A stretch of 64,000 bases of DNA, taken from Aphrocallistes beatrix. Lineage: Eukaryota > Porifera > Hexactinellida > Sceptrulophora > Aphrocallistidae. The stretch covers positions 2,914,001 to 2,978,000 of the forward strand of contig OY725489.1 in assembly GCA_963281255.1 (NCBI GenBank). Direction: 5' to 3'. Shown here piece by piece: positions 2,175 through 62,804 of the stretch (the first letter of the stretch is position 1; the number at the start of each line of letters is the position of its first letter). The notes under the pieces are model-generated. The model searched no databases and had not been told where the DNA came from. It worked only from the letters and a program-made list of their open reading frames with translations. Position numbers and translations under genes: made by a program.

Positions 2175-2186
2175 TATATACATATA

Positions 2187-3446: not shown

Positions 3447-3726
3447 TATATATAAAAATTAATCGAGTTTTAATGGTAAGGATGATGCCTTATGGCATGG
3501 ATGGCGTATAACGTAAATTTGATCATTTTTGGTTTTGACAGGTATATATTCATATTTTCACACCTTTTACCAATAACCTCTATCTTATTAAGATATAACT
3601 GAGATCTCAACGATTTCAAAGGGGTATTCAATTATGGAGAATCCGATTTTCGCTCTTAAAAGTTATAAAGTCAATACATCATGTGTTAATGGCAGCAATA
3701 TATAAAATTTCTAGCATATGTATATA

Positions 3727-3908: not shown

Positions 3909-4099
3909 TATCCACATTTTCATACCTTTTTTAAATTTCGACATTTGAAGTTAGTAGATGTAACGAATTGTTGAAGAAACTGCCAGGAGCAGAAAGCTGA
4001 TTTTTGACACTTGGGAGTCTTTTGGCTATGGCTCGAGTAAGTTCTAACCTCAGACGAAAATGTTGACTCATCCCTGAATTATGACGTCATTGTCACCTT

Positions 4100-4450
4100 T
4101 TTTGGCCGTAAGTGGTGGACATACCTGAGTTTAAAAGATATCGCCTTGAGATTTTTGTGAAGCTGCGAACATACATGTAGATGTACACCTCCTCATATGA
4201 TATTCAATATATGCTTAATCATTTTCATTACGTAGCATTTTGTGATTTAATTATTTTGCTTATTGCACAAAAACTAGAAGAGCTAGAAACTTGAGATTGA
4301 TAACAAAGGAGAAATATGACGCCCTCTAAAACCTATTTAATTCCTAGATCCATCGGAGATAGGACTTTTGAATAATTTGCGGTTAAAAATTTTGACGCGT
4401 CACCATCGCCTAATTAGAGCTAAATTTGAAGAGTTAGACATAAACATATG
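4100..4450 (-). repeat. Family C repeat (Helitron-like 3' hairpin family), partial
   Basis: Reverse-strand match to the repeat at 24100-24749. Shared landmarks are CACTTACGGCC, GATATCTTTTAAACTC, TTTTGTGCAATAAGCAAAA and the GATGACGCG block. The 3' hairpin end is missing here. The family is interpreted at 24100-24749. Confidence 0.6.
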
Positions 4451-4579: not shown

Positions 4580-5068
4580 CAAGCGCGCTTCGCTTACTTG
4601 CACTGCGCGGCTGGCGGACACTTTGTGTCCGCCGGAGGCTCCCTTCGGTCGCCTGGGGGTCACAATAGTTAATTATAAGGGAGATAGCATCTCTAAATAT
4701 GTCTGTCGTATTGTGATAATCGATATCACTCGAAAAATGACCAAATTTGTCAATTTTAAAATTTTTCGATGCGTAATGATGACGTCATAACAAAGTGATG
4801 AGTCATCATTTTTTGATGATAGTTGCACCATATGTGAGGTATGTTAGTATACATAGTCTATTAAAGTTTCAGCCTTCTATCTCCTATAATGACTGAGTTA
4901 TGCTCGAATAACTCTGTTGCTTAACTTTAAAAATGTGACGAAGACGTCATAATTCCATGATGAGTCAACATTTTGGTCTGAGCATGAACTTACTGGAGCC
5001 ATAGCCAAAAGACTCGCACATGCCAAAAATTAGCTTTCTATGACCGGCAGTTTCTTCGATCAATTCGT

Positions 5069-5116
<48 letters not shown>

Positions 5117-5170
5117 TAGATAGATATAGATAGATAGATAGATAGATTAATCGAGTTTTAATAGTAAGGA
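4580..5170 (-). mobile_element. GC-hairpin family, full copy, 591 bp (Helitron-like)
   Basis: Best full-length reference copy. Read on the minus strand it begins TCCTTACTATTAAAACTCGA. It continues through a microsatellite ((GATA)n/(TA)n, 5071-5146) and about 400 bp of unique sequence. It ends in a stack of hairpins (GGCGACC/GGAGCC, GGCGGACAC/GTGTCCGCC, GCGCAGCGC, CAAGCG-AAGCG-CGCTTG). The flanks are A on the 5' side and T on the 3' side, with no target duplication. That fits Helitron A^T insertion, although the end reads CTTG rather than the canonical CTRR. No protein is encoded. Other copies or fragments: 22369, 29723, 51318, 51723, 56868, 57259, 57416, 58898 and 59998. Confidence 0.8.
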
Positions 5171-5245
5171 TACAACCTTACATCTTAACTTAAAAAAGTT
5201 TCTGATCAATTCATTTAAATATTACTTCAGCAAACTGGTAAAATT

Positions 5246-6919: not shown

Positions 6920-7772
6920 GTGTGGTCCTAGCGTTATAGAGCTCGTTGAGATATGTTGCTACACTGATTTTTCTGTTATAAGCCAAAGTCTATGGGAAAA
7001 TAATGTTCAAGTGAAATGAAGTCAATTATGCACTAATCATTGAGTTATGCAATATCCATGCTATCCGCATACTATGCAAACACCTTTTGCTTGTTTTGAG
7101 GTTAAAATCATGATGCAACTTCTTAGTACCTCTCCCATCTAAATGTGGTTAATGCAGATTTCATTGGAAAGTTGACGATTTTTATTTTTAAGATACAAGT
7201 ACAATATTTTCTGCTGTGGATAGAAGGGATTTGACTCTGAAACAAATATATTTTAGCAATTTAAGTAAGACAAGCGCGCTTCGCTTGCTTGCGCTGCGCG
7301 GTTTGCGAACACTGTGTGTCCGCAGAGTAGCCCTGCGGGTGCCTGGGAATATTTAAGAAACGGTCGATTGCTTTTCTAATTCCTTACTAAAAATGTTCAT
7401 CTACGGTTAAAACTCAGGACTGGAGGAGACAACAATATTTGTCTCAAATTTTTGTTAAAATTCTCATTCTACAGTCTATATATCTCATTCTATATACAAC
7501 AAAATAATGTGAATTTTAAGGAAAATGAAATAAAATATTAAACGTTTTCTACACATTTTGAGCAGTGATCAGCTAATGTACATAAATTTCAAACCGAGAT
7601 CGAACAATTTTCATTTTCAAATCATATAGCTATATCACATCCGAATTAACGGAATAAAATTATGACAAAAAATGTTGTCGATATACTGATATGACATCTA
7701 AAAGATGATCAATCGTAGTCCTCGAAATAAAGATTCAGAATCTATTCGTTTGAAGACCATTGCAACTTAATA
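6920..7772. other. No gene; one GC-hairpin fragment at 7271-7350
   Basis: AT-rich sequence with no coding signal. The only recognisable item is an 80-bp GC-hairpin family end (CAAGCGCGCTTCGCTTGCTT...). Confidence 0.6.
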
Positions 7773-17896: not shown

Positions 17897-18067
17897 CACT
17901 ACCCTGACAAAAGTATTCGACCACCACGAAAACTTTCATACAAATAGTATTAAATTGGATCTATTAAAAAAGGAACATATACTCAAACTGTAGAAATTTC
18001 TCCATTTTTTTAAAAAAATTCGTCATCTGCACATTCTATTTACTCTTAATTGAGCATCTCAACTTAA

Positions 18068-18557
18068 TTACTCGGGCGCATGCATTAGTTCGAATCTGTA
18101 TGTAGGCGTTAGTTCGAATCCTGTATGTAGGCGTTAGTCGAATTTGGCTATGTAGGCGTTAGTTCGAATCGAATTTGGCTCTGTAGGCGTTAGTTCGAAT
18201 CGAATTTGGCTCTGTAGGCGTTAGTTCGAATAGAATTTAACTATGTAGTGGTTAGTTCGAATAGAATTTAACTATGTAGGCATTAGTTCGAATTTCAAAG
18301 TAGTAGTTCGAATCGAATTTGAGCAAGTAGTCATTAGTTCGAATATATGACTTTCGTATTATTTGTTACTAACACCAAAGTTAACGAAGTACTTTAGAGG
18401 TACGAATTTCATCAAATACAATTGTCAAAAGTTTCTCCAATTTCTCATATTCTCAGCAGAAAATGCTGCTTTTCCCTCAGTCCTTTTAAATATCTCTTCC
18501 CAATGTCACTCAATGACTACATAGTTAAATTCTATTCGAACTAATGCAGCCCACCCC
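18068..18557. mobile_element. TTAA-flanked MITE with GTTCGAAT tandem repeats
   Basis: TTAA lies at 18064-18067 and 18558-18561. The ends have GCATTAGTTCGAAT in inverted orientation (about 18081 and 18530-18545). Bases 18085-18345 hold about nine units of ~31 bp with GTAGGCGTTAGTTCGAAT and AATTTGGCTCT or AATTTAACTAT. The right end carries a single inverted unit. TTAA flanks suggest piggyBac-type insertion. GTTCGAATCC resembles a tRNA B box, but no A box or tRNA fold accompanies it. Confidence 0.55.
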
Positions 18558-22159: not shown

Positions 22160-22368
22160 ATATAAAAAATGTGTTAACTTGGGAGTTAGTAATTAAGTTG
22201 AGACTATCAATTATGAGTAATTAGAGAGTGTAGTTTACGAATTTGATTAAAAAATAGAATATTTCCTACAGTTAATGCACATATTCCTTTATGAATAGAG
22301 CCACTTTAATACTATTTGTATGGAGGTTTGTATGGTGGTTGAATACTTTTGTCCTGGTACTGTATATC

Positions 22369-22846
22369 CCTCTGTAACGAATTGATTCAAGAAACTGCCA
22401 ATCGTAGAAAACTGATTTTTGGTATGTGCGAGTCTTTTGGATATGGCTCCACTAAGTTCTAACCTCAGACGAAAATGTCACCTCATCACGGAATTATGAC
22501 GTCATTGTCACATTTTTAAAAGTTAAGCAATTCAGTTATTCGAGCATAACTCAGCCATTATAGGAGATAGAAGGCTGAAATTTTTATAGAATCTGTATAC
22601 TAACATACATCACATATGATGCAACTATCATCAAAAAAATGACGTCCTCATCACTCATCAAAATTTTTAAAATTGATAAATTTGGTGATTTTTCGTGCGA
22701 TGTAGATTATAACAGTCTAGGACAGACGTATTTAGAGATGTTATCTCCCTTATAATTAACCAATGTGACCCAGGCGCCCAAAGGGCGTCTCCGGCGGACA
22801 CAAAGTGTCCGCCAGCCGCGCAGCGCAAGCAAGCGAAGCGCGCTTG
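22369..22846 (+). mobile_element. GC-hairpin family copy, 5' end truncated
   Basis: Starts at CTGTAACGAATTGATTCAAG immediately after the TA MITE and ends at the CAAGCG...CGCTTG hairpin, followed by T. It lacks the TCCTTACTATTAAAACTC end and the microsatellite. Bases 22848-23396 hold dispersed repeat matches (GAGATCTCAACGATTAACAT at 23240) but no gene. Confidence 0.75.
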
Positions 22847-29377: not shown

Positions 29378-29722
29378 CTACCAAAAGAAAACACGGTAAA
29401 TATTTGAAAACAATCTCAAGTGACTATACCTAAAAAGGATCTAACTTTAAAATTAAATTCCCTTCGCTTGCATGAGCTGCGCGGGAACCTATTTACAAGA
29501 CATCAGATATCTTTTGAGCTCTGATCTTTCCACGTGTTTATATACATACGTACATTATCGTAAATCCCGAGATATGTCCCCACACCTATTGTAGTGGGAG
29601 AGAGAATATCCGAATGCCAGTCACCTTATATCACATTCCAACTCAGACTAGGTAATTATGTACTAAGTCAAGCCGTCCTGGATCAAACTATCTAACTGTC
29701 ATTGACTAATCAGTTTATTATA

Positions 29723-30114
29723 TCCTTACTATTAAAACTCTATGTATATATATATACAAGTATATATATATATATATATATATATATCTGTAACGAGTTG
29801 ATTGAAGAAACTGCCAGGCACAGAAAGCTGATTTTTGGCATGTAGGAGTCTTTTGGCTATGGCTCCAGTAAGTTCTGAGCTCAGACGAAAATGTCCATCA
29901 AGATTCAAGATCATCAAGAAATGATGACTCATCACTTTGTTATGACGTCATCATTACTTATCAACATTTTAAAAATTGATAAATTTGACAAACGTATTTA
30001 GAGATGTTATCTCCCATATAATTAATCATTGGTGACCATAGGCGACCGAAGGGAGCCTCCGGCGGACACAAAGTGTCCGCCAGCCGCGCAGCGCAAGCAA
30101 GCGAAGCGCGCTTG
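29723..30114 (+). mobile_element. GC-hairpin family copy, 392 bp, complete ends
   Basis: Starts TCCTTACTATTAAAACTC preceded by A and ends CAAGCGAAGCGCGCTTG followed by T. This agrees with A^T insertion without target duplication. It has the (TA)n run after the 5' end (29740-29790) and lacks about 200 bp of the interior of longer copies. Confidence 0.8.
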
Positions 30115-40240: not shown

Positions 40241-41090
40241 ACACAAGCGCGCTTCGCTTGCTTGCGTTGCGCGGTTTACGGACACTGTGTGTCCGCAGAG
40301 TCGCCCTACAGGCGCCTGGAGTTACTCAATCTATCCTATTTTGGGAATTTTTTTTCATTATATAAATATTGTAACAAAAGTTAACGAATAATTTCTCATA
40401 TGGATCCGAAAATATAATATTCGAAATCTAGAGCACTAAAACCCCCATGTCAACCGTTGGAAGCTAGTCTCTAGCCTATTTTTGTAATCTGTTTATTTTA
40501 TGTATCTATTGTAAACAAAAGGAAACAATTAATTTATCATATAGATCTGAAAATATGATATTCGAAATCTACACACCTGAAAACCCTATGTCAACCGTTG
40601 AAAGCAAGTTTCTAGCCTATTTTTGAGATTTGTTTACTTTATGAATCTAATGTCAACATAAGTAAACAAATAATTTATCATATAGATCTGAAAATATGAT
40701 ATTCGAAATCTCACCCCTAAAAATCCCATGTCACCCGCTGGAAGCTAGTCTCTAGCATTATTTTCAAAATTCGTCAAAAGGTGTGAAAATATGTATATAA
40801 AGGTGTGAAAATATGCACATAATCTTTTTTATCGCTATACGTTATGATACATTTAAGATATCAAACATAAGTTGTGGCTTTGAAGTATTAATAACAAAGA
40901 CAATATATTGTAGTGCCGTACAATGATTTCCATTGCGATAGTGCAGTCATATATTTTGTATAGAAAAGGTGTGAAAATTTTGCTTAGATCTTAGAACTTA
41001 ATCGTAGTGATACCATTTGACACCTACGTGGCAATTTTCATATCTCTACGACTTGCCAATTCTTCAATCTGCTAGAATTATTACTAAAAT
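40241..41090 (+). repeat. GC-hairpin fragment followed by family F element
   Basis: Bases 40241-40326 are a GC-hairpin end. From about 40390 come four diverged ~130-bp units (GAAAATATGATATTCGAAAT...), then the family F tail (GGTGTGAAAATATG twice, TTGTGGCTTTGAAGTATTAA, ending CTTGCCAATTCTTCAATC). It has the same structure as 11196-11935. Confidence 0.7.
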
Positions 41091-41348: not shown

Positions 41349-42809
41349 ACATACGACATAATGGGGTCTTTGGGTAGCCCAGTGAGTTCATTACGCATAT
41401 GACATAGTGGGGTCTTTCGGTACCCCAGTGAGTTTATTACGCATATGACATAGTGGGGTCTTTCGGTACCCCAGTGAGTATATTACGCATACGACATAGT
41501 GGGGTCTTTCGGTACCCCAGTGAGTTGATTACGCATATGACATAGTGGGGTCTTTCGGTACCCCAGTGAGTATATTACGCATACTACATAGTGGGGTCTT
41601 TCGGCACCCCAGTGAGTTTATTTCGCATATGACATAGTGGGGTCTTTCGGTACCCCAGTGAGTTGATTACGCATATGACATAGTGGGGTCTTTCGGTACC
41701 CCAGTGAGTTTATTACGCATACGACATAGTGGGGTCTTTCGGTACCCCAGTGAGTATATTTCGCATACGACATAGTGGGGTCTTTCGGTACCCCAGTGTG
41801 TATATTACGCATACGACATAGTGGGGTCTTTTGGTACCCCAGTGAGTATATTACGCATATGACATAGTGGGGTCTTTCGGAACCCCAGTGAGTTTATTAC
41901 GCATATGACTTAGTGGGGTATTTCGGTACCCCAGTGAGTATATTACGCATACGACATAGTGGGGTCTTTCGGTACCCCAGTGAGTTTATTACGCATATGA
42001 CATAGTGGGGTCTTTCGGTACCCCAGTGAGTATATTACGCATACGACATAGTGGGGTCTTTCGGTACCCCAGTGAGTTTATTTCGCATATGACATAGTGG
42101 GGTCTTTCGGTCCCCAGTGAGTTGATTACGCATATGACATAGTGGGGTATTTCGGTACCCCAGTGAGTATATTACGCATACGACATAGTGGGGTCTTTCG
42201 GTACCCCAGTGAGTTTATTACGCATATGACATAGTGGGGTCTTTCGGTACCCCAGTGAGTTGATTACGCATATGACATAGTGGGGTCTTTCGGTACCCCA
42301 GTGAGTATATTACGCATACGACATAGTGGGGTCTTTCGGTACCCCAGTGAGTTTATTACGCATATGACATAGTGGGGTCTTTCGTCACCCCAGTGAGTTT
42401 ATTACGCATATGACTTAGTGGGGTCTTTCGGCACCCCAGTGAGTATATTACGCATACGACATAGTGGGGTCTTTCGGTACCCCAGTGAGTTTATTACGCA
42501 TATGACTTAGTGGGGTCTTTCGTCACCCCAGTGAGTTTATTACGCATATGACATAGTGGGGTCTTTCGGCACCCCAGTGAGTATATTACGCATACGACAT
42601 AGTGGGGTCTTTCGGTACCCCAGTGAGTTTATTACGCATATGACTTAGTGGGGTCTTTCGGTACCCCAGTGAGTATATTACGCATACGACATAGTGGGGT
42701 CTTTCGGTACCCCAGTGAGTTTATTACGCATATGACATAGTGGGGTCCTTTTGTACCCCAATATTGGTAGGGGTCTTTGAATACCCCACCCTGGCAGACA
42801 CGGGTTAAT
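41349..42809 (-). repeat. 46-bp tandem array, ~30 units, ending in piggyBac-type GGGTTAA
   Basis: About 30 copies of GACATAGTGGGGTCTTTCGG-TACCCCAGTGAGTNNATTACGCATAY. Each carries the stem-loop TGGGGT...ACCCCA. Unit variants alternate (GAGTATATTACGCATAC / GAGTTTATTACGCATATG / GAGTTGATT), indicating amplification in blocks of two to three. The array ends at about 42764. A variant copy and GACACGGGTTAA (42798-42809) follow, which is the inverse of the TTAACCC end at 757. The array is therefore the expanded subterminal region of a piggyBac-type element (inference). Frames within it are artefacts of the repeat. Confidence 0.9.
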
Positions 42810-43662
42810 AAATTCGGTCCCTCAGGGTTTTCTTAATTGTATTAAGAGGGGTGTACTTGGGACACACTCAGTACCTATCCCCGAAAATAGTGATCCAATC
42901 TGCGGGGGTAGAAATCATATTGACATGATTTTTACACTTTATAGTAGCTCAATAATTTGCTGATGTAACTTTCACAGAAAGTACCATCAGCAAGAGTCCG
43001 GTTGTCCTGAAAAATCTTACATCCTGTGACATGGTTGGGTAACAATCTAAGGTAAAATCGCTTCCGGATGAGCTGCATACATACGACCTATCATAGTACC
43101 ATGCTCCTTAACTATCACCTTCCATTTGCAATTAGACTTGTCCCAGTCAAACCCATCGGGGAAATTCCCTAGCGTAATGGAATTTCTGGTTTGCAATAGA
43201 CTATTCAGCTAGAGTGGTGTGCCTTTCTCGGTTCAAGGCAACTTCAACATTAGTTGGTTCATCGAAATAAGCTGACTGCTGATGCAGACATGTGGCAGAT
43301 TCGCATGGTACTCATATGCAAAGATACAACAACAGGCTTCTGTGGCAAACACATACCTGCCCTCTAGGTAGGTCGCTATTTCGTCCATGCACTTTTTAGT
43401 TCCGGCAGCATCTGCCTCCTCACCACCTGACTGAAACTCTACAATAGCTCCATCGTGTCCTTTATACACGTATTTATACTATGTCATTCAATAAGTCTTG
43501 AGGATTGAGTTGTATTTCGTATTATCGCTGTAAAGTTCTCATCCTTCATCTATAATTTAAGCTTAAATCTTATCTTTAAATGTTCCAAATTATAGGCTGA
43601 TTGAATGAAAACTCAGAATTTTCTAGCTTTTCACATCACATGTATTTCAGCATACTGAATAA

Positions 43663-43729
43663 AATTGTCATCTTTAGAAGCCATTTTCTACAATTGTAGA
43701 AAATGGCTTCTAAAGATGACAATTTCAAT
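43663..43729. repeat. ~33-bp arm palindrome over the mariner start codon
   Basis: AAATTGTCATCTTTAGAAGC... and ...GCTTCTAAAGATGACAATTT are inverted copies meeting at ACAATTGT near 43695. The right arm contains the transposase ATG (43703) and first codons. The left arm is therefore an inverted duplication of coding sequence placed in the leader. The other mariner copy (5171-5412) lacks it. Confidence 0.85.
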
Positions 43730-44750
43730 TTGAAATGGAGAACGTACATTGATTTCGAACAAAACTAAATATCCAGTGCTTACTGATTCACAATGAGTGC
43801 GAGAGATACTAGGCATGGATTATCCTTCCAATCCACCACTGAACGATGGGCTGCACGATTTAGGTCGGAGATACTGATGTGGCAGTTTTACCTCGCTCAG
43901 GAAGACCGATATCCGTCAGCACTCCAGAGAATGTTGCAATAATTGAGAGAATGGTGATGGAAGACAGGTTTTTAACAGTCGATCATATAGCGCATAGTAT
44001 GGAGATGTCATCGGGAGCAATTCACTCAATTCTGAGCATTCGATTTGGCTACCGATCAATTTGTGGCAAATGGGTCCCGCATATTCTCAGTGAGAAACAA
44101 AGGCTCACCCAAGTGAATACAGCCAATAAATTCTTGGAAACATATGATAAGTGTGATTCTAGGCGCCTATCAGAAATTATAACTGGTGATACACTTGGAT
44201 ACCGTTTTCCACTCCATATAGCAAGTATAAAATGCGATCGTGGATGAAAGGAGATGAAAAACCGGCACAAGTTCTCAGGCCCGACTTCAGAAACCCGAAG
44301 GTAATGTATACAATTTTCTTCAACGCGGCGGTATTGTATTACAATAATAATAATAATAATATACATTTATATAGCGCAGATTCCATATTAATATGTTCAA
44401 GTGATTAAAAATGTAAATGAGGCTCGTCCAAAGGCTGGAATGAGAGGTATAAAATTATTGATTGATAATGCCAGTTCCCACACAGCCAAGTTTATCCATT
44501 TTTTTTGAATCTGAGAGGATATAATTACTTCCTCACTCTCCATACTCACCAGACCTAGCTCCCTGTGATTTTTGGCTCTTTCCAAAGGTGAAAATCTATC
44601 TTCAGGGTAAAGAATTTGACACGAGACAAGCACTCGGAACTTCTTTATACCAGTACTTCAAATCCATCCCGGAAGAAGAGTACAGAAAAGTGTTTGTTCA
44701 GTGGGTTGAAAGATTGAGAAAGTGTGTCAGTAGGAGGGGATTACTTTGAA
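43703..44750 (+). pseudogene. mariner transposase, several frameshifts
   Basis: Begins MASKDDNFNLKWRTYIDF, then a stop. Readable parts are TTERWAARFRSEI (helix-turn-helix), RSGRPISVSTPENVAIIERM (second helix-turn-helix), ITGDTLGYRF with the first catalytic Asp, LLIDNASSHTAKFIHF with the second, and SPYSPDLAPCDFWLFPKVK with the third. The distance between the last two (100 nt) fits DD34D after correcting a small deletion. The frame ends CVSRRGLL near 44750. An (AAT)n run (44340-44360) lies inside. Non-functional. Confidence 0.9.
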
Positions 44751-46195
44751 TAAATAATATACTACATTAGTCTCTATAGTGTATACACTTACTTTTGTGA
44801 TATGACCCGCAAGACTTTTTGAATGCCCTGGTATATAGATACTTTACTGCAATCACTGTACTACAAATTTCTACTTTAATATGAGCAATATTATACTTTA
44901 ACAACAAAAATTGATTGTAAGACAGAACCCATCTATTGTCTAGCTTATCCCCACCCACATTAACAGCATGGCCGTCATTTAAAAGATGATATGGTGGGTG
45001 CCCATCTTCAGAGGTTGTAGTGACTACTGAAAACGCCTTTGGGAATTCCTTAGAGCACCTCCTATTTTTTAGGAGGTAGCGCTCTTTTTGGCTACTCCAA
45101 ATGGACAGTGCATCATACAGCGTTTAACAATAGCGTGCATTAGAGGTTAGAGAATTGGGTCAGGAACCTCAGGACACTCAGCGGTTCCCTAGGCTTATCC
45201 ATATCTGAGAGTATAATCAAAATGTGAGCGTGAGGGAGACCTCTCATCTGGAATTCTAAGTGTTAACATGAGCAAGGGGTTTACCCATGACATCCAAATA
45301 TGATTATTCTTCTAACTTCAATCTAAAGACACTAACTATTATAACTACTAAATCAATGCGTTCAGACACTTTCTGATTTAATATGAGAAGTACGGATTAA
45401 TCTCCTCTCATTGCGAATTACATGTACATGCAATGAAATAGTCTGGCTTACCGTATTTCCCGACTATACTCATTGCATCCTGGTACAACTCGAAAATCTG
45501 CCAAGGAGAGCCAGTATAGGAGGAGGGAAGCACTATCTTACGTCCCAACTCTCTGGAGTCTACGTCACCCGCAGCGACTGCATCAGCCAATCCACAGTAA
45601 AGATCCACATGAATTTTCTTCTGATTGGTCCTGATGTAGTTGAGTCGCTACTGCTCAATCTTGGCGTATACATCCACTGCATACTGATGGAACAGTCTAC
45701 CACTGAGGTGTAAAGGTGAGGAATATTGATATGCCAGACATTCTCACCTAGAGGGAATTACAAAACATATTGCAGTGCATCGTGCGCATGGTCAGTCTCG
45801 GTAAATGCTGGTGAACCCCCTTCGCGCAAACAGCACTATATCCCTGCTGGCGACCTCTTCTCAATAACCTTCATTCGGTAGGATGACAGCTATTTCCTGA
45901 GCAAGTGGGAGATTTATAACGTCGATAATCTGGACACCCGTCTGCTTTGAACACCATTCTTACGTCAGCTCCTCCCTACTCTCGCATCAGATCTAGTCCC
46001 TGTTCTAAAAATCCTACATAAGGGTGAACCTCATGCAGCATATGCTGCAATCCTTTTAGCTCAGTCAGCGATACAGCTGTATGTCATACTGCCACTTGAA
46101 TGCTCGTCGACTATGCTATCAGGGACATTTTTGGCAATAATTGACCGGGTGAAATTCTCGACTATGCGAGATTGTGTCCAAGCGATTTCGCTACA

Positions 46196-48665: not shown

Positions 48666-51317
48666 GGAGGCGTAGCCAAGGGCATGCCAGGGCCTGCTTG
48701 CAGGCCCACACTAAAAGTCCGCAGGCCCACTGCAGGCCCTTCATTAGGTCCATCTGCAGACCCTATTGCTACCCCTGACGAATTTCAGAGTTTTTGACAT
48801 TTAATACTAATTATTTCCATGAGCCTACATCATGGAACCCTCTATACAAACTATCTGCTTATACGGATATGAATCTCTCTTTTGGTTATTGTCTTTCCCT
48901 GTCACTTATTATTGTCCCATTGCTTTACAGTATTTGTGGAAAGTGACATATTGAAGCTTGTGTATGCATCTACTACTCAGATCTTTGGATAATTGCTTCG
49001 AATAATCAGAATGTATTTTGTAATGAATTAATGTTTTCAGTGGATGACAACGACAGCGACAACATTGTGGACGACATTGTTCCCACTCCAAATAAGCAGG
49101 GGATATTTGATGACATTGTTCATCTCATACTTGAAGATATATCACAGGACAAACTACAGACTTCATGTCAACCTGAACCGGCTAAGCATTTGCTATTAGC
49201 AGTTAAGCATGGCAAAACGTTCCAGGTGAAGTGGTACATTGACATATCATGGTTGGAGTATTCCATGTCAAAATCTCGAGCTTTCTGCTTTTGTTGTCGG
49301 CATTTTCCCACTCATCGCACCGGCATGGTATGGACTAGAGATGGATTCTGCAGCTGGAATAATGGGGAAAAGCCAATAGCATGAAGAAGGAGACGGACAC
49401 AAAGATAGTATGGCAGCTTGGACTGCCATGAAGACCGCAAAGCTTGGGATCAAGTCTCTGGTAAACGAATCATATGCAACAGAAATCAAACAAAACCGAG
49501 AATATCTCGGAGCAGTTATTAATGTTGTTCTTCTGCTCGGGAAACAAGGATTGGCCTTCAGAGGACATCTAGAAGGTGAATTTAGCATTAATAAAGGCAA
49601 TTTGTTTTAAGCACTTTATAGTCCCTTTATCAAAGTATTCAGGAATTGTGGATCAAAAACTTCAAAGAAAAACAGAAAAAATGTTAAATAGACATCCCCA
49701 GACATCCAAAATGGCCTTATTAAGATTATAGCCTCTAGAGTGCTACGTGAGCTCGTGAATGAAGTCATTCTGCTCGATTCTTCAGCCTACAAGTTGATGA
49801 AACAAATTTCAATTTACTTGAGATACATTCTGAATAATGAACCACATGAAGAATTCCTCAATTTCAAACCTGCTAATGAGCTAAATGCTCAAAGTCTGTT
49901 TGATGTCATTTTGGAAACTCTTCCCAAAGAAGGTGTCGGTATACAACCGTGTGTTTCGCAGTCTTACGATGGAGCTTCAGTGATGTCAGGGCACTTGTCG
50001 GGCGTAAGGAGACTCATGACCGATATGGTTCCAGGCTGCTTCTACATCCACTGCAATGCACACAAGATGAATCTTTGCATAGTGGACTGTGTTAAAGGTA
50101 TTGGTCAGGTTGCAGATTTTTTAAAGTTCTTCAGAGACTATAGATATTAATGAGTGGTTCTGCGGTTCATAAAGTATTTTCAGAAAAGCTAAAGGACGCT
50201 AATAAGAACCACAAAGCTGGTGATGAATTCAAACTAACCTTAAAAAGGCATTCTGATACTAGATGGACAAGTCAGTTTGAGTCATGCAGGGCAGCACACT
50301 CTTCCATGGGATTTATTGTCGAAGCCCTTGAGCAGTTCTACAGTATTGATGAGAGAAACGCTGAAAGACGAATTGTAGCCGACAGACTATGATCAGAGAT
50401 CACTTCAACATTAATGATACATCTTGTCCTGTTTGAAGAGATTTTAAGAACCACATCCGCTCTTGCAAGGTATCTTCAGGGCAAGACATTGGACTCGCCA
50501 GTGCTTTGCATCAAATCAAAAAGGTTGAAATACAATTCGCTACCGCTAGGCGTGATGTCGTATCGCCAAACAGTCTTTGGCAGACCATTTGGGTAATTGC
50601 TCAATCTATCATTAGCAAAATGGAGTTACCAAAACCTGTTCCTCTTTTCTTTCGGCAGACGAGATACCAGACGGCGGCTGATCATGAAAATCCTAACTCA
50701 GAGGATGATTATCTTCGTTCTTTTCTATCCAGTTATAGACCGAATCTTGATTGAATTCAGAACTCGATTTTCACACAGAAATATGGATGTCTACAAAGGG
50801 CTTCTTGCGCTGAATCCATTGGATCGAACATTTCTCGACTCAGATGCTATTCTTGGTTTGGGAGCACATTTTGCGGAGCCAACTGGTCCCATTAAAATGC
50901 AATATCTTAAAAATGATGCTGCTGCAATCGGAAGAGTAATTGAAAGCCGCAAGGCTACTGGTTAATACATTCCCAAGAGCATGGTCGAAATTCTTTCATC
51001 TCTTCATTATCTTAAAGAAGCTATCTCAGAATTATATGTTCTTCTCAGTATAGCGATAACGTTTCCCATCACTACAGCATCCTGTGAGAGAAGTTTTTCA
51101 GTATTGAAAAGGATTAAAAATGGGTTAAGAACGACTAGTACTCATGATAGGATAGGAAATTTGGGTGCTTTAGCTATTTGTTCACATTGCGCCGAAGCAA
51201 TAGCAATAGCTGGCATCATCTCTGATTTCAAGGCCTTAGGGCCAGAAGGGAAAAGAAAAATAGCTCTTAGAGTGCTGATTGGGTTACTACTGGGTTACTA
51301 CAATTGTTACATTTTTA
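48660..51317 (+). mobile_element. hAT (ZMYM1-like) transposon remnant
   Basis: The 5' side begins CAACGCCGGAGGCGTAGCCA, resembling hAT ends of the CAG-GGCGTAGC type. It interrupts the LINE fragment. The 3' end is not found: coding sequence runs to about 51310, where a GC-hairpin copy abuts. Confidence 0.6.
49031..51310 (+). pseudogene. hAT transposase with TTF zinc finger and DUF4371-type core
   Basis: Blocks in order: KHGKTFQVKWYIDISWLEYS and AFCFCCRHFPTHRT (TTF-type zinc finger, 49210-49315), then ESYATEIKQNREYLGAVINV (49465-49520). Next come SQSYDGASVMSGHLSGVRRL and CFYIHCNAHKMNLCIVDC (49960-50090), a hallmark of ZMYM1/DUF4371 hATs, with the catalytic-region Asp in YDGASVM. Then SDTRWTSQFESC and, at the C terminus, ASCERSFSVLKRIKNGLR with LGALAIC (51080-51180), the hAT dimerisation motif. 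At least four frame breaks (near 49385, 49620, 50150 and 50400) make it inactive. Confidence 0.88.
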
Positions 51318-51663
51318 ACAATTAAGCAACACAGTTATTCGGGCATAACTCAGCCATTATAGGAGATAGAAGGCTGAAATTTTAATAGAATCTGTATATT
51401 AACACGTCTCACATATGATACAACTATCATCAAAAAATGATGACTCAATACTCTGCAATGACGTCATCGTTACTCATCAAATTTTTGAAAATTGACAATT
51501 TGGTGTTTTTCGAGTGATATCGATTTTAAAACTAAGATGGACATATTTAGAGAAGATATATCGCGTTTAATTAACCAAAGTCACCTCCAGGCGACCGAAG
51601 GGAGCCTCTGGCGGACACAAAGTGTCCGCCAGCCGCGCAGCGCAAGCAAGCGAAGCGCGCTTG
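51318..51663 (+). mobile_element. GC-hairpin family copy, 5' truncated
   Basis: Starts within the element interior (ACAGTTATTCGGGCATAACT) and ends at the CAAGCG...CGCTTG hairpin followed by T. It is one member of an opposed pair with 51723-52230. Confidence 0.75.
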
Positions 51664-51670
51664 TATATAA

Positions 51671-51722
51671 AATATATCCTTACTATTAAAACTCGATTAA
51701 TGTTTGTGTATATATATATATA
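51671..51722. repeat. Isolated GC-hairpin 5' terminal motif between opposed copies
   Basis: ATATCCTTACTATTAAAACTC and GATTAATGTTTGTG followed by (TA)n link the two hairpin ends. This is the start sequence of the family without its body, in the orientation of the left copy, running straight into the opposed hairpin end. Confidence 0.6.
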
Positions 51723-52230
51723 CAAGCAGGCTTCGCTTGCTTGCACTGCGCGGCTGGCGGACACTTTGTGTCGCCCGGAGGCTCCCTTCGGTCGCCTGGG
51801 GTCACATTGGTTAATTATAGGGGAGATAACATCTCTAAATACATCTGTAAATCAGTAAAATCACCAAATTTATCAATTTTAAAAATTTTTATGAGTAATG
51901 ATGACGTCATAACAAAGTGATGAGTCACCATTTTTGATGACAGTTGTTCCGTATGTGAGATATATTAATATACATAATCTATTAAAATATCTCCTATAAT
52001 GGCTGAGTTATGCTCGAATAACTGTATTGCTTAACTTTTTAAAATGTGACAATGACGTCCTATTTCCATGATGAGTCGACATTTTGCTCTGAGCTCAGAA
52101 CTAACTGGAGCCACAGCCAAAAGACTCCCACATGCCAAAAATCAGCTTTCTGCACCTGGCAGTTTCTTCAATCAATTCGTTACATATATATACATATAAA
52201 TAAATATTAATCGAGTTTTAATAGTAAGGA
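51723..52230 (-). mobile_element. GC-hairpin family copy, 508 bp
   Basis: Hairpin end CAAGCAGGCTTCGCTTGCTT at the left, preceded by A. The end ...TTAATCGAGTTTTAATAGTA-AGGA at the right is followed by T. Complete at both ends on the minus strand. The region from 52231 to 53090 has an (ATT)n run at 52236-52266 and no recognised gene. Confidence 0.8.
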
Positions 52231-53428: not shown

Positions 53429-54012
53429 GGGGCCTTATTCACTAAACTACTTAAACTAGTAAATACTTAGTTTTTGCTAGAAACTAAGTATAAAACTAAG
53501 TATTTTCAATACTTAGTTTGAAAAAGTTAAGTGGTATTCACAAACCCAAACTAAGTACAATACTTAGTTTTTGACTTAGTTTAAGTACATTACTTAGTTT
53601 TATACTTAGTTTTGTTCAGTTTTACTTAGTTTTTAGTGCAATTTTAAGTATTTTTTTAAGTATACTTCGGAGGTAACTTAACTTATTTAATCAATCTAAA
53701 TTATCTTGATTGTTTATTATTATACATTCATAAACAAATTTCGATGTTTATTTATCTTAATTCTTGTGTTTGAATTCACAAGATTCATAATCATAGAACT
53801 TCAAAGTACAATAGATACGTAATATTCATGATCAAATTAGCAACGCAGTAAATTCAGTTTCATTTTGGTGTATTTATCATCACTTTAAACACGACACAGA
53901 TTACGCATTTAGAGGATGATTAGATATACTTGTTTGCGTAAATTGAAAGAAGCTAATTTTCGAGTATCTATTAATAGTCTGTTTAAAAATTAGGATTACT
54001 ATTACAATTGCT

Positions 54013-54530
54013 AAATATATAACCGAAAAATTGGTGGTGGACCTCCTGAAGCGGGCCTAACAGAACTTGAAGCAAAGATACTGGCTATAAAGGGAAAGGA
54101 AACTTTTGAAGGGATCACTGAAGGGATAGATACTTCCATGGCGTCAGCTAATAGTCCTCTTACTGATAGTGACATGATGCTTTCCAGTCCAGTTAATGTT
54201 CCGTTTGCAATGTCAGAATCGGCAGTAGAAATTCCACATCCAAGGAAAAGGAAACTCAGGGAAATTTCAGTGCAGGTTAATATAAAGAAGAATATTCTGG
54301 AAAATGAAGTACGGAAAATTGAGTTAATCCAAAGTATTGAATCCCAAATCAAAAATTTAACTGAGACCTTGAATTGCAAGATGGATCGTATTGCAGATAA
54401 CTTGAAAGTGCTTGTTTCTAATCAGAACAAATTAATTACACTACTCTCGGGAATGCGAAATGATCCACCTCTTTATCATACAACATCTTCAGCCCATCTA
54501 TCTTATGGATATCAGAATTATTTTCCATAA
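54013..54530 (+). pseudogene. Harbinger Myb-like DNA-binding protein, C-terminal part
   Basis: The frame opens after a stop at about 54010 with KIGGGPPEAGLTELEAKILA, the conserved segment following the Myb/SANT-like domain in Harbinger accessory proteins. An acidic Ser/Thr stretch (SANSPLTDSDMM), the basic motif PRKRKLREI and a coiled-coil-like region (ESQIKNLTETLNCKMDRIAD) follow to a stop at 54530. The Myb-like domain itself is absent or on an upstream exon. The partner protein normally carries the transposase into the nucleus and binds the ends. Convergent with the transposase, 116 bp apart. Confidence 0.75.
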
Positions 54531-54646
54531 TTTCAGCAAGTAAATAGTGATTATAACTACCCACTTATATTACAATAGTAACTTTTAATGTAGTCTTAGA
54601 ATTCAAACCTTTCTTGTAAGTTTTGAGAGTAATAATATCTACAGTA

Positions 54647-55432
54647 CTAGTTGAAATATTCATTAATGACTGATTGGCGAATTACTTGTCCACTACTGGC
54701 AGGATCATGGGGAAATACTTCATCATCTTCTTGGATATCTATAAATAATTCCTGCTCCAGCTGTAATCCATGGAGAATGCAGATGTTGTGTAACATCATT
54801 GTTGCTAAAACTAGTTTGCAAGTCCTCTCCGGTGTATAACAGAGTGTGCCTCCTGTTTTATCCATCGATCTCCTGCGACTCTTCCACAAACCAAATGCAC
54901 ACTCAATATTTCTACGTGTCTTTAAGAATGCGGATTATATCTCCTCTCGCCAGGAGTATTTGGAGATAGGAGAGGGGTCAATAACCTAGGACATAGTGGA
55001 TACCCACTATCTCCCAGAAACCATCCGTTTACAGTTGGAATATCCCCACTTGCAATTTTCTGATTTATCCCAGACTGTCTCCAGATAAAGGCATCATGCG
55101 TACTTCCAGGCCATTTCGCAACTACATCGATGAATTTTAAACTTCGATCACAAATGGCTTGGATGTTAATCGAGTGTGCATTTTTTCTATTTACAAAAAT
55201 TGCTTCATTTACCGAAGGCGCGACAATTGGAACATGACTACAGTCGATACATCCTAGCACCAATGGAAAGCCATCCTTCTCTTGAAAGGGCCGCTGTATG
55301 GTAACATCTCTCTTTATTAGATGGCCGAAAACGCTTGCGATCGAGACTACTTTCAGAAGACGAAAAGTTACGATTCAGAATTTCTCTATTCTTCCATATG
55401 CTGCTCACTGCAGTTTTGGCGCATTCAATCAT
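54647..55432 (-). pseudogene. Harbinger (HARBI1-type DDE_Tnp_4) transposase, one frameshift
   Basis: From 55432: a segment of the N-terminal region, then after a frame change MVLGCIDCSHVPIVAPSVNE with the first catalytic Asp (GCID, about 55250). KWPGSTHDAFIWRQSGI and GWFLGDSGYPLCPRLLTP (second Asp, about 55020) follow. Near 54922 a frameshift leads to NIECAFGLWKSRRRSMDKTG with the catalytic Glu. YTPERTCKLVLATMMLHNIC and an acidic tail end at 54647. All three catalytic residues are readable but in different frames, and the N-terminal ~100 residues are missing. Confidence 0.9.
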
Positions 55433-55570
55433 TTATATGAAATTTAATTGTGTAAATCGCATTATAAACCTGGTAATTGATTGTTTCTCGCTTGAATCAA
55501 TGAATTTCAATCACAAATAGTTCATTCCATTGTATGTATTGTAAATGTACGTATTCACTACTGTTTAGAT

Positions 55571-56036
55571 CTGTGTATTTGTATCATAAAAGAAACGAAT
55601 TTCATTGGTCATCACATTTTGTCACCTATCTTGGCTACGTTTAAAGATTCCGCTTAGATTTTGGAATTTACTCGTATAATCATTATTATTTACATGTGCA
55701 CCAAACATTACAAGCACCTTCCAGTTCCTCAATCAACTCTGCACAATACAAACCACTTTGTGTTTCTTTTAAAGATAGTCCTTTTAACTGTAAGCATTAG
55801 TCACTACTATTTGACCAAATATTTTGGCATTATAAATAAATCGAATTTGATTGGTCAGCACATTTTGTCACCTATCTCGGCGATGAGTGAAGATATCATT
55901 TAGATCTTCGAAGTCCCTTCTAGAGAGATTATTATTTACCTGTGTGCCAAATTTTACATTTCTAGCACCTCCAATATCCCCAATCATTTGTACAATAATG
56001 AAGCAAAAAACCCATTGGGATTTAATATACAAGATA
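55571..56036 (+). repeat. Two tandem family F ends
   Basis: GAAACGAATTTCATTGGTCA...CAATCAACTCTGCACAAT (55591-55745) and ATTTGATTGGTCAGCACATT...CAATCATTTGTACAAT (about 55850-55996) are the same ~150-bp terminal sequence in succession. They end with TTGGGATTTAATATACAAGA. Confidence 0.6.
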
Positions 56037-56867
56037 TAGATAATTTTGCACTCACTTTTGCTACTATTAAGCTTTTTTTAGATGTTTTGAAGTTATTTTT
56101 CGCAGAAGAAATTTGCTCCCAAGTTTTGAAAATATGGTACATAATACCAACTACATTCTGACAAACTTGCTATGCATTACAAGGGTCGTTCAATAAGCTT
56201 TTAGAATCACTACTATCTTCTAATTTGTTATACACCAATATATTTTATTTCTATAGTGCATTATGTAACTATAATATCCAAACTTTTACTATAAGAGGTG
56301 TATTCAATAAATATTTGAAATGTAATCGACTAGCTAAATATATTGGTTGATTAAACCTAAACTAGTATTACATTTTTTAAAAATATTCATCCTTTGCATT
56401 TATGCACTTTCTAAATTATAAAATTCAATGAAATTCAATTATAAAATTCAATTCAATGATTCTAAAATTCAATGATTTACCTTTAATGGAACAAATTGAT
56501 ATTTTGTTGTCAAGGCTGAGCTTAGTTAAGGGATTCTAGAGCTGTTACTTTGGTTTCCTGAGACCGGTTAACCAATGTCAATATTAATTGGTAGAAATCT
56601 TAAATTTTGGACTAATATTCAGCCTGAGATTGAAAAATTTATTAACTCAGTGGTCTTGAATTATGTACTATATGATAAGAATATAGTAATTATATAATAA
56701 AATAGATTCATGAATCTGTGTCAAAAACAATGAAATCTTTATGTTATTTCAAAAATAATGCAGACATAAGTACAATAGACATACGGAGTGATGATTTATG
56801 AATAAGTTTAAAACGATGTGATTTCCATGTTTAAACGATTATTTGGTAAATGAAAAGCAGAGGGATA
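56037..56867. other. AT-rich, no gene seen
   Basis: Only a short direct repeat of AAAATTCAATTATAAAATTC type (56415-56470). No open frames of note and no terminal repeats. Confidence 0.5.
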
Positions 56868-57402
56868 TTCTCCTTATAAGGGAGATAACACCTCTAAATA
56901 CGTCTGTCCTACTGTTATATTCGATATCGCACCAAAAAGCACAAAATTTGTCAATTTTTTAAATTTTAATGTATAATGATAACGTCATAACAGAGTGATA
57001 AGTGATTATTTGTCTATGATAGTTGTATCATATGTGAAATATATTAATATACATATTGTATTAAAATTTCAGCCTTCTATAACTTAAAATGGCTTATGGG
57101 CGAAAACTGAAATTTCTAATTATAAAAAGGTGACAATGACGTCATAATTCCATGATGAGTCGACATTTTGGTCTGAGCTAAGAACTTAGTGGAGCAATAG
57201 CCAAAAGACTCCCACATACCAAAAATCTGCTTTCTGTACCTTGCAGCTTCTTCAATCAAATTTGGTGATTTTTCGTGCGATATAGATTATAATTGTAGAA
57301 GTCGGACAGACGTATTTAGAGATGTTATCTCCTTTATAGTTAATCCTTCGGCGGACACAAAGTGTCCGCCAGCCACGCAGCACAAGCAAGCGAATCGCGC
57401 TT
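56868..57402. repeat. GC-hairpin copies: interior of one joined to the end of another
   Basis: Bases 56868-57258 are the family interior in minus orientation (GGGAGATAACACCTCTAAAT ... TGCAGCTTCTTCAATCA). At CAAATTTGGTGATTTTTCGT it changes to plus orientation, running to a mutated hairpin end (CAAGCGAATCGCGCTTA, 57386-57402). It looks like a recombination or nested-insertion junction. Confidence 0.65.
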
Positions 57403-57415
57403 ATATATATATATA

Positions 57416-57940
57416 CAAGCGCGCTTCGCTTGCTTGCGCTGCGCGGCTGGGGGACACAAAGTGTCCGCCGGAGGCTCTCTTCGGTCGCCTGGGGTCACAT
57501 TGGTTAATTATAAGGGAGATGACATCTCTAAATACGCCTGTTCTACTGTTATAATCGATATCGCACGAAAAATCACCAAAATTATCAATTTTTAAAAATT
57601 TGATGAGTCATCATTTTTTGATGATAGTTGCACCATATGTGAGGTATGTTAGTATACATATTATATTAAAATTTCTGCCTTCTATCTCCTATAATGGCTG
57701 AGTTATGCCCGAATAACTGTGTTGCTTAACTTTGAAAATGTGACAATGACGTCATAATTTCATGATGAGTCGACATTTTGCTCTGAGCCCAAACTTACTA
57801 GAGCCATAGCCAAAAGACTCCCACATACCAAAAATCAGCTTTCTGGGCCTGGCAGTTTCTTCAATCAATTCTTTACAGATATATATATATATATATATAT
57901 ATATAGATAGATAGATAGATTAATCGAGTTTTAATAGTAA

Positions 57941-57943
<3 letters not shown>
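57416..57943 (-). mobile_element. GC-hairpin family copy, 528 bp
   Basis: Hairpin end CAAGCGCGCTTCGCTTGCTT preceded by A, opposite end ...CGAGTTTTAATAGTAAGGA followed by T. (TA)n(GATA)n at 57878-57921. Opposed to the hairpin end at 57386-57402 across 13 bp of (TA)n. Confidence 0.82.
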
Positions 57944-58750: not shown

Positions 58751-59747
58751 CACTACCCGGACAAAGGTATTCGACCACCACGAAACCTTCCATACAAATA
58801 GTATTAAATTAGATCTATTCAAAAAAGGAACATGCACTCAAACAGTCGAAAATACTTTTTTATTTCAAATTCGTAATCTACACATTCTAATTACTCACAA
58901 GCGCGCTTCGCTTGCTTGCGCTGCGCGGCTGGCAGACACTCCCTTCGGTCGCCTCAAGGTGACATTGGTTAATTATAAGGGAGATAACATCTCTAAATAT
59001 GTCCATCTTAGTGTTAAAACCGATTTCACTAGAAAAATCACCAAATTTGTCAATTTTAAAATTTTTGATGCGTAATGATGACGTCATAACAAAGTGATGA
59101 GTCATCATTTTTTGATGATAGCTGTATCATATGTGAGTTATGTTAGTATACAGATTCTATTAAAATTTCAGCTTTCTATCTCCTATAATGGCTGAGTTAT
59201 GCCCGAATAACTGTGTTGCTTAACTTTTTAAAATGTGACAATGACGTCATAATTCCATGATGAGTCGACATTTTGCTCTGAACTCAGAACTTACTGGAGC
59301 GATAGCCAAAAGACTCCCACATGCCAAAAATCAGCTTTCTGTGCCTGGCAGTTTCTTCAATCAATTCGTTACAGATATAGATATATACACAAACAATAAT
59401 CGAGTTTTAATAGTAAGGATAATTGAGAGTCTCAATTCAATAACGTATTCTTATCTAGAAAATTATCAACCTCTGACACTTTGTGTCACTAATCCCCATC
59501 ATATATAATGGCTGTGACTTGGGACAAGTAGCATCAAGTATCAGATGTTGATATTTATTAACTTGGAAGTTAGTAATTAAGTTGACGATCTCAATTATGA
59601 GCAATTAGAATGGGTAGTTTACGAATTTGATATAAAAAATAGAGTATTCTTTACAGTTTGTGTACATATTCCTTTATAAATAGACCCACTTTAATACTAT
59701 TTGTATGGAGATTTCTGTGGTGGTCGAATACTTTTGTCCGGGTACTG
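58751..59747. mobile_element. Tc1-like TA-flanked MITE, second copy
   Basis: Ends CACTACCCGGACAAAGGTAT and, inverted, CAGTACCCGGACAAAAGTAT, TA at both edges. Without the GC-hairpin insertion (58898-59419) it is 475 bp. It is the empty-site reference for the piggyBac insertion at 18791 (ATTTATTAACTTGG near 59552). Confidence 0.9.
58898..59419 (-). mobile_element. GC-hairpin family copy, 522 bp, inserted in MITE
   Basis: Flanked by A (58897) and T (59420). Removing it gives ATTACTCATAATTGAG, compared with ATTTACTCTTAATTGAG at the same place in the MITE at 17897. So nothing was duplicated or lost at the target. It has a shortened hairpin region, lacking one stem. Confidence 0.88.
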
Positions 59748-59756: not shown

Positions 59757-59985
59757 CAGGGTATTATACAGCCTTCCAGAGAAACGCTCTTAATCTAAAA
59801 TTTCTAAATTTTCATACGCCTAAATCGCTAAATACCATTACAATATTGGCTAAATTGATTATTTTTCTGAATTTTTACGCTCCTAAACACATTGCGGCTT
59901 AAAACCATAAGCCTAAAGGAGCGTCTCGCGCTCCTAGATAATCCCCTGATATATATATATATATATTCGAGTTTTAATAGTTAGG
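59757..59985. repeat. Possible small MITE and GC-hairpin terminal motif
   Basis: TCAGGGTATTATACAG at 59755 and the inverted CAGGGGATTATCTAGGAGCG ending at 59950 suggest a ~195-bp MITE with GAGCGTCTCGCGCTCC hairpin near its right end. Bases 59966-59987 repeat the GC-hairpin 5' motif CGAGTTTTAATAGTTAGGAT. Confidence 0.4.
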
Positions 59986-59997
59986 ATTATTGCTATG

Positions 59998-60300
59998 CAA
60001 GCGCGCTTCGCTTGCTTGCGTTGAGCGGCTGCCGGACACTTTGTGTACGCCAGTCCGCCAGATGCTCCCTTCGGTCGCCTGGGGTCACCATTGATTAATT
60101 ATATGGGAAATAACATCTCTAAATACGTCTGTCCAACTCTTATAAATTATATCGCACGAAAAATCACAAAATTTTCAATTTTTGATGCGTAATGATGACG
60201 TCATAACAGGGTGATGAGTCATCATTTTTTGATGATACTTGAATCATATGTGAGATCTGTTAGTATACAAATTCTATTAATATTTTAGCCTTCTATCGAC
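59998..60300 (-). mobile_element. GC-hairpin family copy, truncated
   Basis: Hairpin end at 59998 (CAAGCGCGCTTCGCTTGCTT), GGCTCCCTTCGGTCGCC-like stem, and interior to GTTAGTATACAAATTCTATT at about 60280. The 5' half is missing. Confidence 0.75.
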
Positions 60301-61250: not shown

Positions 61251-62804
61251 CTAATTAATAGATACCCGTTCTTCACAGCCATGGCAAATATTCAAGTGTC
61301 GGGAATGATCATTACAAACGCACTTATTGCATAATGAAAAAACAGATCGGCATTTTTTATCATTCGTTCGTGGACAATAGTTGCATCTTGTTTTTTTGTG
61401 TTTAATTAATGGTATAGGTTTAGGGTAAGTGGTGTTAATGGGCGCTATATCATCCAAAGTATCAATTTCTTGACTATTCTCTGGAATAGCTGGCGGGCTC
61501 GAAAGCATAGAGGTTGTTGGTTCAGGATTTTCAGGTGGAGGTAATGGAGGTGCTTGCGGTAATGAATTAGCAGATTTTTTTTAGTACTGATTCAATAATT
61601 AGTTTGATATCATTGTGTAGATATTGATAATCGCGCGAATATTTCCTGGAATTGAGTTGTGGGGTAATTAGTTCGATACCCAGTTGATATATGAATGTGC
61701 GCCTATCTCTCTTCTTTACGATATCTGAATTAGGAAACTTATGTTTATAGATTACATAAGAAGCATGGGATGTAATAGCCAACAAATCGAAAAACAATGT
61801 GCAGGGCCACCGTCTAGTTGCTTTATATGGTCTGTATTCTTTCAATAAATGATCTAAGACATCAACTCCTGATTTGTACCTATTGTATTCCATTATTATC
61901 GCAGGTTTTAGTTTAACAGTCTGTGAAATAGTTTTGTCATGATGGATATTAGAGAGGAGTAAAACACTTCTATTCTTTCGAGCAATATATGAGACCAGGG
62001 TGATATCGTTATTAAAAAGAAATGTTGAAGTGAATGGAGGAACACCTTTGATTTTCAATAAATAGTCAGGAATTTCCCTACGAAATTTTCTTATGGTGCC
62101 TAGATAGGAAATGGCAACGTCACTGCGCAACTTATTGCATAATTTTACTGAAGTGAAAAAGTTATCTCCAAACAATGTGTGCCCAGGTTTGAGATGAGAT
62201 GCAAGTCGTAATACTGTATCCTCAGTTGTGCAACCTTTTAGAGCCCCCGTGTAAACTTCAATATTTATTGGAAAATAATTCAGGAAATCTGCAATAATAA
62301 ACATTTTAATGCCATATTTATCAGGTTTTGAAGGTATATATTGCTTAAAAGGACAATGACCGCGATATCTGCATAAATGCTCATCAATAGTGAGTTGTTT
62401 GTTAGGATTATATGAATTTTTAAGAGAAGAAACAATAGAATCTAAAACAAATCGTATATGTGCCAGCTTATCAGTCATTTGCCTCTCTAATCTTGTCTTA
62501 TAGTCATCGAATCTCAGAAAACGAAGAATCAGCTTAAATCGGTCTCTAGGCATAGTAGCCCTAAATATCGGTCTCGAATAATTTGGATCATCTGAATAAA
62601 TACAGTTTACTGGATCTCGAGAAGCACGAAATACACCAATTAATAACATTAAACCAAAAAATGCTGTCATTTCATTGTAAGAAATAAGATGGTAGTACTT
62701 CTTAGGGGGTGTCTTTAACTGATTTAAAAATAATTATAACTTAGCATTAGTGTGTTTGAGAATATGGGTACATACTTCCTCTGACAGAAATATCTTGAAA
62801 ATAT
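61251..62804 (-). pseudogene. piggyBac transposase 3, exon 2 with one frameshift and one stop
   Basis: Close relative of the gene at 27597-32490. It starts after an acceptor-like TTGTTTAG at 62805 with ATATTTTCAAG, the same intron position, reading DIFKIFLSEEVCTHILKHTN. A TAA interrupts at about 62735. From 62670 the frame is open: GVFRASRDPVNCIYSDDP, LTIDEHLCRYRGHC (first Asp), GDNFFTSVKLCNKL (second) and KSGVDVLDHLLKEYR (third). A one-base shift in an A-run near 61575 separates this from the tail, which is Pro-rich (LPQAPPLPPP) and then CNYCPRTNDKK...CNKCVCNDH...CHGCEE, the zinc-binding end. No N-terminal exon is found upstream. Confidence 0.9.

Follow-up and report, generated by a model that had tools for sequence, protein, structure and literature searches.

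The stretch of DNA analyzed here, called the window below (64,000 nucleotides, C2:2914001-2978000, from a genome of 100.5 Mb in 28 contigs), carries near its end a 522-bp repeat copy on the minus strand that begins with TCCTTACTATTAAAACTC after an A and ends in GCGCGCTTG before a T. The original prediction had described five copies that start after an A and end in CGCTTG before a T, and in all five we found A followed by TCCTTACTATTAAAACTC at one end and GCTTG followed by T at the other, with the letters CCTGCTTG in place of CGCGCTTG in the 508-bp copy. The microsatellite that had been noted beside the plain end is also present and varies from copy to copy. In the window, the 5′ 18-mer occurred 8 times with up to three mismatches (0.12 expected) and the 3′ 16-mer 13 times with up to two (0.01 expected). 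A BLAST comparison of the 522-bp copy with the window gave 14 pieces with body or 5′ sequence, the query counted, and 6 places that had only its last 34-43 bases in common (Table 1). An apparent 5.7-kb copy at 51677-57403, obtained by pairing ends by proximity, was rejected, a solitary 5′ fragment and a 3′ fragment having been paired by chance. The host repeat of the 522-bp copy (around 59420-59660) is abundant and has inverted arms; 40 near full-length matches to it were scored among 600 first-look candidates.

Table 1. Copies and fragments of the repeat family in the window, with related features.
Feature	Position in window	Strand	Remarks
Solitary 5′ fragment	3447..3482	-	BLAST with 522-bp copy
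Internal fragment	3959..4101	+	BLAST with 522-bp copy
Sister copy, 591 bp	4580..5170	-	BLAST and end letters
3′ end only in common, different body	7271..7313	-	BLAST with 522-bp copy
Empty relative of the 522-bp copy's insertion site (site of the original prediction)	18016..18071	-	84%, no gap, A-A
Empty relative of the 522-bp copy's insertion site	22189..22254	+	87%, no gap, A-T
Sister copy without 5′ end, 3′ tail folds well	22371..22846	+	BLAST and fold
Sister copy, 392 bp, internal deletion	29723..30114	+	BLAST and end letters
3′ end only in common, different body	40244..40286	-	BLAST with 522-bp copy
Decayed Rep-helicase part, family B	42808..46173	-	Matches B 1385-7599 in pieces, 76-86%
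3′ part of copy	51303..51663	+	BLAST with 522-bp copy
Solitary 5′ fragment, 45 bp, to its TA tract; inverted copy directly after	51677..51721	+	
Sister copy, 508 bp, beside TA tract of 5′ fragment	51723..52230	-	BLAST and end letters
Two fragments, opposite orientations	56874..57403	.	BLAST with 522-bp copy
Sister copy, 528 bp, within TA tract	57416..57943	-	BLAST and end letters
Non-autonomous Helitron copy, 522 bp (probable)	58898..59419	-	A/TCC...GCTTG/T; collinear with both ends of element B
Terminal hairpin region ending ...GCGCGCTTG	58898..58930	-	DNA fold pairs to 2 bases before end
Short TA-rich microsatellite near 5′ end	59372..59390	-	Copies align over bases 1-23, then from ~33
5′ end 18-mer TCCTTACTATTAAAACTC	59402..59419	-	Identical in 9.5-kb autonomous element; 5,876 genome matches
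Empty relative of the 522-bp copy's site, adjoining the copy	59538..59660	+	76%, no gap near junction, A-T
Solitary 5′ fragment	59948..59986	-	11 bases downstream of 3′ end of piece 59998..60297
3′ part of copy	59998..60297	-	C after its end, one of few exceptions

The same ends are very frequent throughout the genome. The 5,876 occurrences of the 5′ 18-mer, counted with at most one mismatch, compare with a single occurrence of a backwards control. An A preceded 4,087 of 4,291 exact 5′ ends (95.2%; another base in 204), and a T followed 4,439 of 4,519 exact copies of the 3′ 17-mer (98.2%; another base in 80). In the subset of loci examined in detail the corresponding values were 53 of 57 and 54 of 55. 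Among 100 of the 204 exceptional 5′ ends that were listed, the preceding base was G in 69, T in 19 and C in 12; the excess of G fits head-to-tail junctions of elements, yet the count of exact junctions was only 71. As T is both the first base of the element and the base that follows it, the insertion breakpoint is ambiguous by one T.

To look for target duplications, we compared 60 flank bases from each side of an insertion with a subset of genome loci and removed duplicate sequences from the recount. Thirty-five other copies, with their ends paired by proximity, were queried and 4 gave usable sites; the 522-bp window copy was judged apart. We left out array or tandem neighbours compared with themselves (L005, L060, J70) and cases of microsatellite length (L042, L063) when counting empty sites. 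The five insertions with homologous empty sites (the window copy, L006, L053, J74 and J75, two of them 9.6-9.9-kb elements) clearly had no target duplication.

The base before the junction was A in all empty relatives of these five insertions, and the base after it was more variable. For the window copy, 5 empty places lacked a gap near the junction and read A-T in 4 cases and A-A in 1. The original prediction had pointed to a clean empty site at about 18050; this site exists and is free of gaps, but its junction reads A-A rather than A-T. L053 had 10 empty places without a gap (A-T in 8, A-A in 2), and the autonomous element J74 (9,587 bp) had 7 in the window tandem repeat at 5568-6596, again with no gap and with A-T in all 6 distinct sequences. 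L006 lies inside the body of another copy; 1 of its 36 empty places had a gap near the junction, and the junctions read A-T in 7, A-G in 21, A-C in 7 and A-A in 1. The one empty place of the autonomous element J75 (9,949 bp; 77% identity, no gap) read A-A. Thus, A-T at the empty site was clear in three cases, was found in a minority of relatives for L006 and was not seen for J75. Together, the genome-wide flank counts and the empty sites bear out the proposed insertion between A and T without target duplication, the behavior of Helitrons described in a passage of PMC5876387. The tandem repeat at 5568-6596 has a period of about 152 bp, and a related unit on the same contig, at about 4.5 Mb, is interrupted by an autonomous family A Helitron at an A-T step.

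A search of the genome with the PF14214 profile gave 106 matches, of which four with frames longer than 1,500 aa were taken with their surroundings. The original prediction had called for a full-length Rep-helicase relative sharing both ends, and element B (C2:3994039-4003543, 9,505 bp) is such a relative: it lies between A and T, carries the 5′ 18-mer and 3′ 17-mer of the 522-bp copy with zero mismatches and has one 1,959-aa open frame. The suspected kinship of a remnant at 42950-45960 also held, this being a decayed B-like piece at about 42.8-46.2 kb (76-86% identity) with a PF14214 match inside it (C2:2959393-2959719, window 45393-45719). A second family, A, comprises three copies, on C7 (9,510 bp), C2 (9,587 bp) and C11 (9,949 bp), with the 5′ end TCTTATATATTAAAACTC and the 3′ end CAAGCGAAGCGCACTTG, the latter almost the same as that of family B. 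Both families open with TC (A, TCTTATATATT...; B, TCCTTACTATT...). The family A frame is single on C7 (1,947 aa) and C2 (1,970 aa) and split on C11 (1,531 and 452 aa), and the 3.5-kb Rep loci of the three copies are 97-98% identical; DNA identity between A and B is about 69% over the Rep/coding part. Two further RepHel loci, L024 (C2:5470199) and L025 (C2:5481661), lie 11 kb apart and are 99.8% identical over 3.5 kb, which may reflect either a recent duplication or an assembly duplicate.

The proteins of A and B, the two candidate helpers, matched the Pfam domains Helitron_like_N, PIF1, Pif1_2B and OTU, and each thus combines Rep (HUH) and a PIF1-type helicase in one protein. The OTU match was above the cut-off in A (E = 1e-7) and weak, below the cut-off, in B (4.6e-4). 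STPR repeats (PF21107) occur in four stretches of the N-terminal part of the B transposase, the best at about 5168-5380 of L071. The searched part of the A protein aligned with the bat transposase Helraiser (7lcc) at 1,053.7 bits over residues 219-1674, about 1,450 residues, and kept the letters of what we take to be the H-x-H and paired-tyrosine motifs.

The shared ends, partner genes with open frames, duplication-free junctions and zero-base head-to-tail junctions (below) were all observed directly. On this basis we consider it highly probable that the repeats are non-autonomous Helitron derivatives, mobilised in trans by the RepHel transposase that 9.5-kb relatives in the same genome encode. 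The steps of this movement (nicking, strand peeling, a circle intermediate and the hairpin as terminator) are taken from published work on Helraiser. By analogy, the HUH/two-tyrosine nuclease would place a nick at the 5′ TC end, the nicked strand would be peeled off by the PIF1-type helicase, the hairpin-rich 3′ tail would act as terminator at CTTG, and a single-stranded or circular copy would then insert between a target A and T without duplication.

The 3′ end was examined by folding. The tail at 22747-22846 folded as DNA into three hairpins (-27.4 kcal/mol, z = -5.4), with none of 200 shuffles as good, and its last hairpin stops 2 bases short of the element end. The tail of the 522-bp copy, from which a deletion has removed most of the first two hairpins, folded no better than shuffles (z = -1.0; 28 of 200 as good). 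Of the four to five hairpins that had been proposed, three are clear and beyond those there is only one weak one. RNAalifold returned no structure for 61 tails; helices were therefore defined from motifs and their pairs counted. Paired cells in the three helices numbered 253 of 336, 466 of 506 and 560 of 597 (shuffled means 253.5, 463.6 and 560.1), and an alternative stem CAAGCG/CGCTTG, which includes the last base, was paired in 348 of 366 cells (shuffled mean 348.2). We found no covariation beyond shuffles in these 61 tails, cells changed on both sides numbering 3, 2, 1 and 0. Since paired cells equal the shuffled means, the helices are conserved but carry no covariation signal.

Canonical Helitrons have TC and CTRR ends and a palindrome some 11 bp before the terminus, and they insert between A and T, as set out in part of PMC4067079; a passage of PMC6544945 repeats the CTRR rule. 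Families A and B end in CTTG rather than CTRR. They also lack a palindrome of 16-20 nt some 11 bases from the 3′ end and have instead a 9-bp stem, which stops about 33 bases short of that end, and a terminal hairpin, which stops 2 bases short. The CTTG end, which had been regarded as odd, has precedents: sections of PMC4289320 give it for HELPO2 of Pleurotus ostreatus, and sections of PMC4778049, which also present a read-through model, give it for some new Helraiser ends and for maize Helitrons. Because of the non-CTRR, end-flush, multi-hairpin 3′ end, we file the family as a variant RepHel Helitron. According to a passage of PMC4289320, the HelSearch rule is CTRR with a hairpin a few bases upstream; our results suggest that search rules of this kind could miss such a family.

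A different rolling-circle origin, as Helentrons or HINEs of the DINE-1 type, could be read from the remark that the microsatellite recalls DINE-1/HINE elements, and would entail 12-15-bp subterminal inverted repeats, a microsatellite, a 3′ stem-loop, insertion at TT and a helper with an endonuclease domain. The microsatellite beside the 5′ end agrees with such an origin, as does an 11/13 match to the inverted 5′ end that family B carries 123-139 bases before its 3′ end, equalled by 9 of 300 shuffles for the 522-bp copy and 1 of 300 for element B. However, family A has no such inverted repeat (8/13; 248 of 300 shuffles as good), the flanks are A and T instead of TT, the helper strongly matches Helraiser, and the Pfam matches of the two helpers include no (AP-)endonuclease domain. 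On the target and the helper we therefore reject DINE-1/HINE membership and regard a Helentron origin as very improbable. Judged by their sequences, the partner with the same ends and the Helraiser match of the family A protein, the repeats are not DINE-1/HINE Helentrons but RepHel Helitrons, which are a mostly expected kind of mobile DNA.

The window is rich in transposons, and DDE domains were found in five of the eight frames searched: DDE_Tnp_1_7, which we take to be of the piggyBac type, at 27597-29423 (-), 61567-62733 (-) and 19239-20156 (+), DDE_3 at 2172-2816 and DDE_Tnp_4 at about 54922-55374. These frames raise the question of whether the repeats are cut-and-paste (DDE) MITEs that leave no visible duplication, the more so as the last of them is flanked by a solitary 5′ fragment on one side and a 3′ fragment on the other. 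The letters after the inverted copy at 51723-52230 are not element body, however, which means that no longer element continues from the 5′ fragment at 51677. Consistent target duplications, or a DDE-encoding partner with the same ends, had been named in advance as findings that would overturn a Helitron-like origin; the five insertions with empty relatives had no duplication, and both ends belong to RepHel elements, which practically refutes a DDE origin and leaves it a negligible probability. The Helitron-like reading of the original prediction is thus supported by the flanks, the empty sites and the full-length Rep-helicase partner.

Some copies lie in tandem or nested clusters. Exact head-to-tail junctions (CTTG directly followed by TCC, zero bases between) numbered 71 genome-wide, which is compatible with rolling-circle transposition but is not proof of it. 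Tandem neighbours were 96.4% (L005) and 91.8% (L060) identical. One explanation is that tandem and nested clusters formed after insertion, by replication slippage and unequal exchange, and are neither rolling-circle products nor the result of a preference for the family's own TA tracts. The only array examined (L064, C1:1718065-1718302) has a perfect 60-bp super-repeat, as slippage might produce, yet it consists of eight 5′ ends, one body and one 3′ end, as in plant Helitron arrays. It amounts to a minisatellite built of eight family 5′ ends. One zero-base junction joins two different elements (9,510 bp and 618 bp); this one, at least, stems from separate elements and needs insertion. Also at odds with slippage, 446 of 4,519 exact 3′ ends run straight into TATATATATA, a count without a matched control. 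The 5′ TA tract of the family offers A-T insertion sites, and 3 of 35 copies lay within a perfect 12-base TA tract, whereas among the window's 6,945 AT steps 58 did so (p = 0.003 by Fisher's test); this enrichment is only modest, which counts in favor of slippage, and the figure is rough because the control window itself contains copies. We give slippage and unequal exchange a substantial chance, somewhat short of even, of accounting for the clusters.

Comparison of the short with the long elements revealed what we consider the most interesting part of the family, decayed terminator copies inside autonomous elements. The 522-bp element corresponds over its bases 1-479 to B 1-468 (89.6% identity) and over its bases 401-522 to B 9367-9505 (82%); the overlap of the two matches stems from a decayed terminator-like copy inside B at about 411-511, roughly where the 522-bp element ends. 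Element B has in addition a truncated terminator at about 9280-9362 and the working one at 9387-9505, and in the C7 copy of element A a decayed terminator lies directly before the working end. Three decayed segments, aligned with the working end of their own element, scored 30, 46 and 35, each better than all 200 shuffles. The B copy L018 has a decayed terminator copy at the same place as element B, and among 30 Rep loci L026 and L032 also reach part of this region, by similarity only. The short element may have arisen either because transposition halted at the first terminator or because the DNA between two terminator copies was deleted. Tentatively, and with more doubt than confidence, we suggest that short and long transposons might derive from one 5′ end through stopping at, or reading through, serial hairpin terminators, that the decayed copies could record terminator bypass and replacement, and that the end-flush multi-hairpin CTTG terminator might form a 3′-end class of its own. 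The read-through model is known from the reconstructed Helraiser; serial terminators are a point worth testing, and they would let this model be examined in natural copies. More broadly, candidate helpers that combine open frames with the same ends can now be assigned to a very abundant repeat, with thousands of ends in 100 Mb, which opens mobilisation to a direct test.

Three end sequences of the family had no match in literature text. DINE-1/HINE elements and Helentrons resemble it in high copy number, 3′ stem-loop, microsatellite and rolling-circle type, and differ, according to part of PMC4067079, in the TT target and an endonuclease-bearing helper; they also carry subterminal inverted repeats, on which families B and A here gave diverging results. 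Plant Helitron arrays (Xiong et al. 2016, as summarised in a passage of PMC12628747) likewise have several 5′ ends and one 3′ end; unlike in those, the unit here is only 28-40 bp of the 5′ end, in the one array examined. HELPO2, as portrayed in sections of PMC4289320, shares AT insertion, CTTG, a subterminal hairpin and Rep plus helicase in one frame, but is fungal, and the likeness is by description and not by sequence. Helraiser/Helibat1 of the bat shares the RepHel protein (about 1,450 residues aligned), the 5′ TC, A-T insertion without duplication and a 3′ hairpin. It differs in a CTAG end and one 19-bp palindrome 11 bases upstream (given in part of PMC4778049), whereas the sponge family has CTTG, an OTU-like C-terminal part and a stack of hairpins that stops only 2 bases short of the end.
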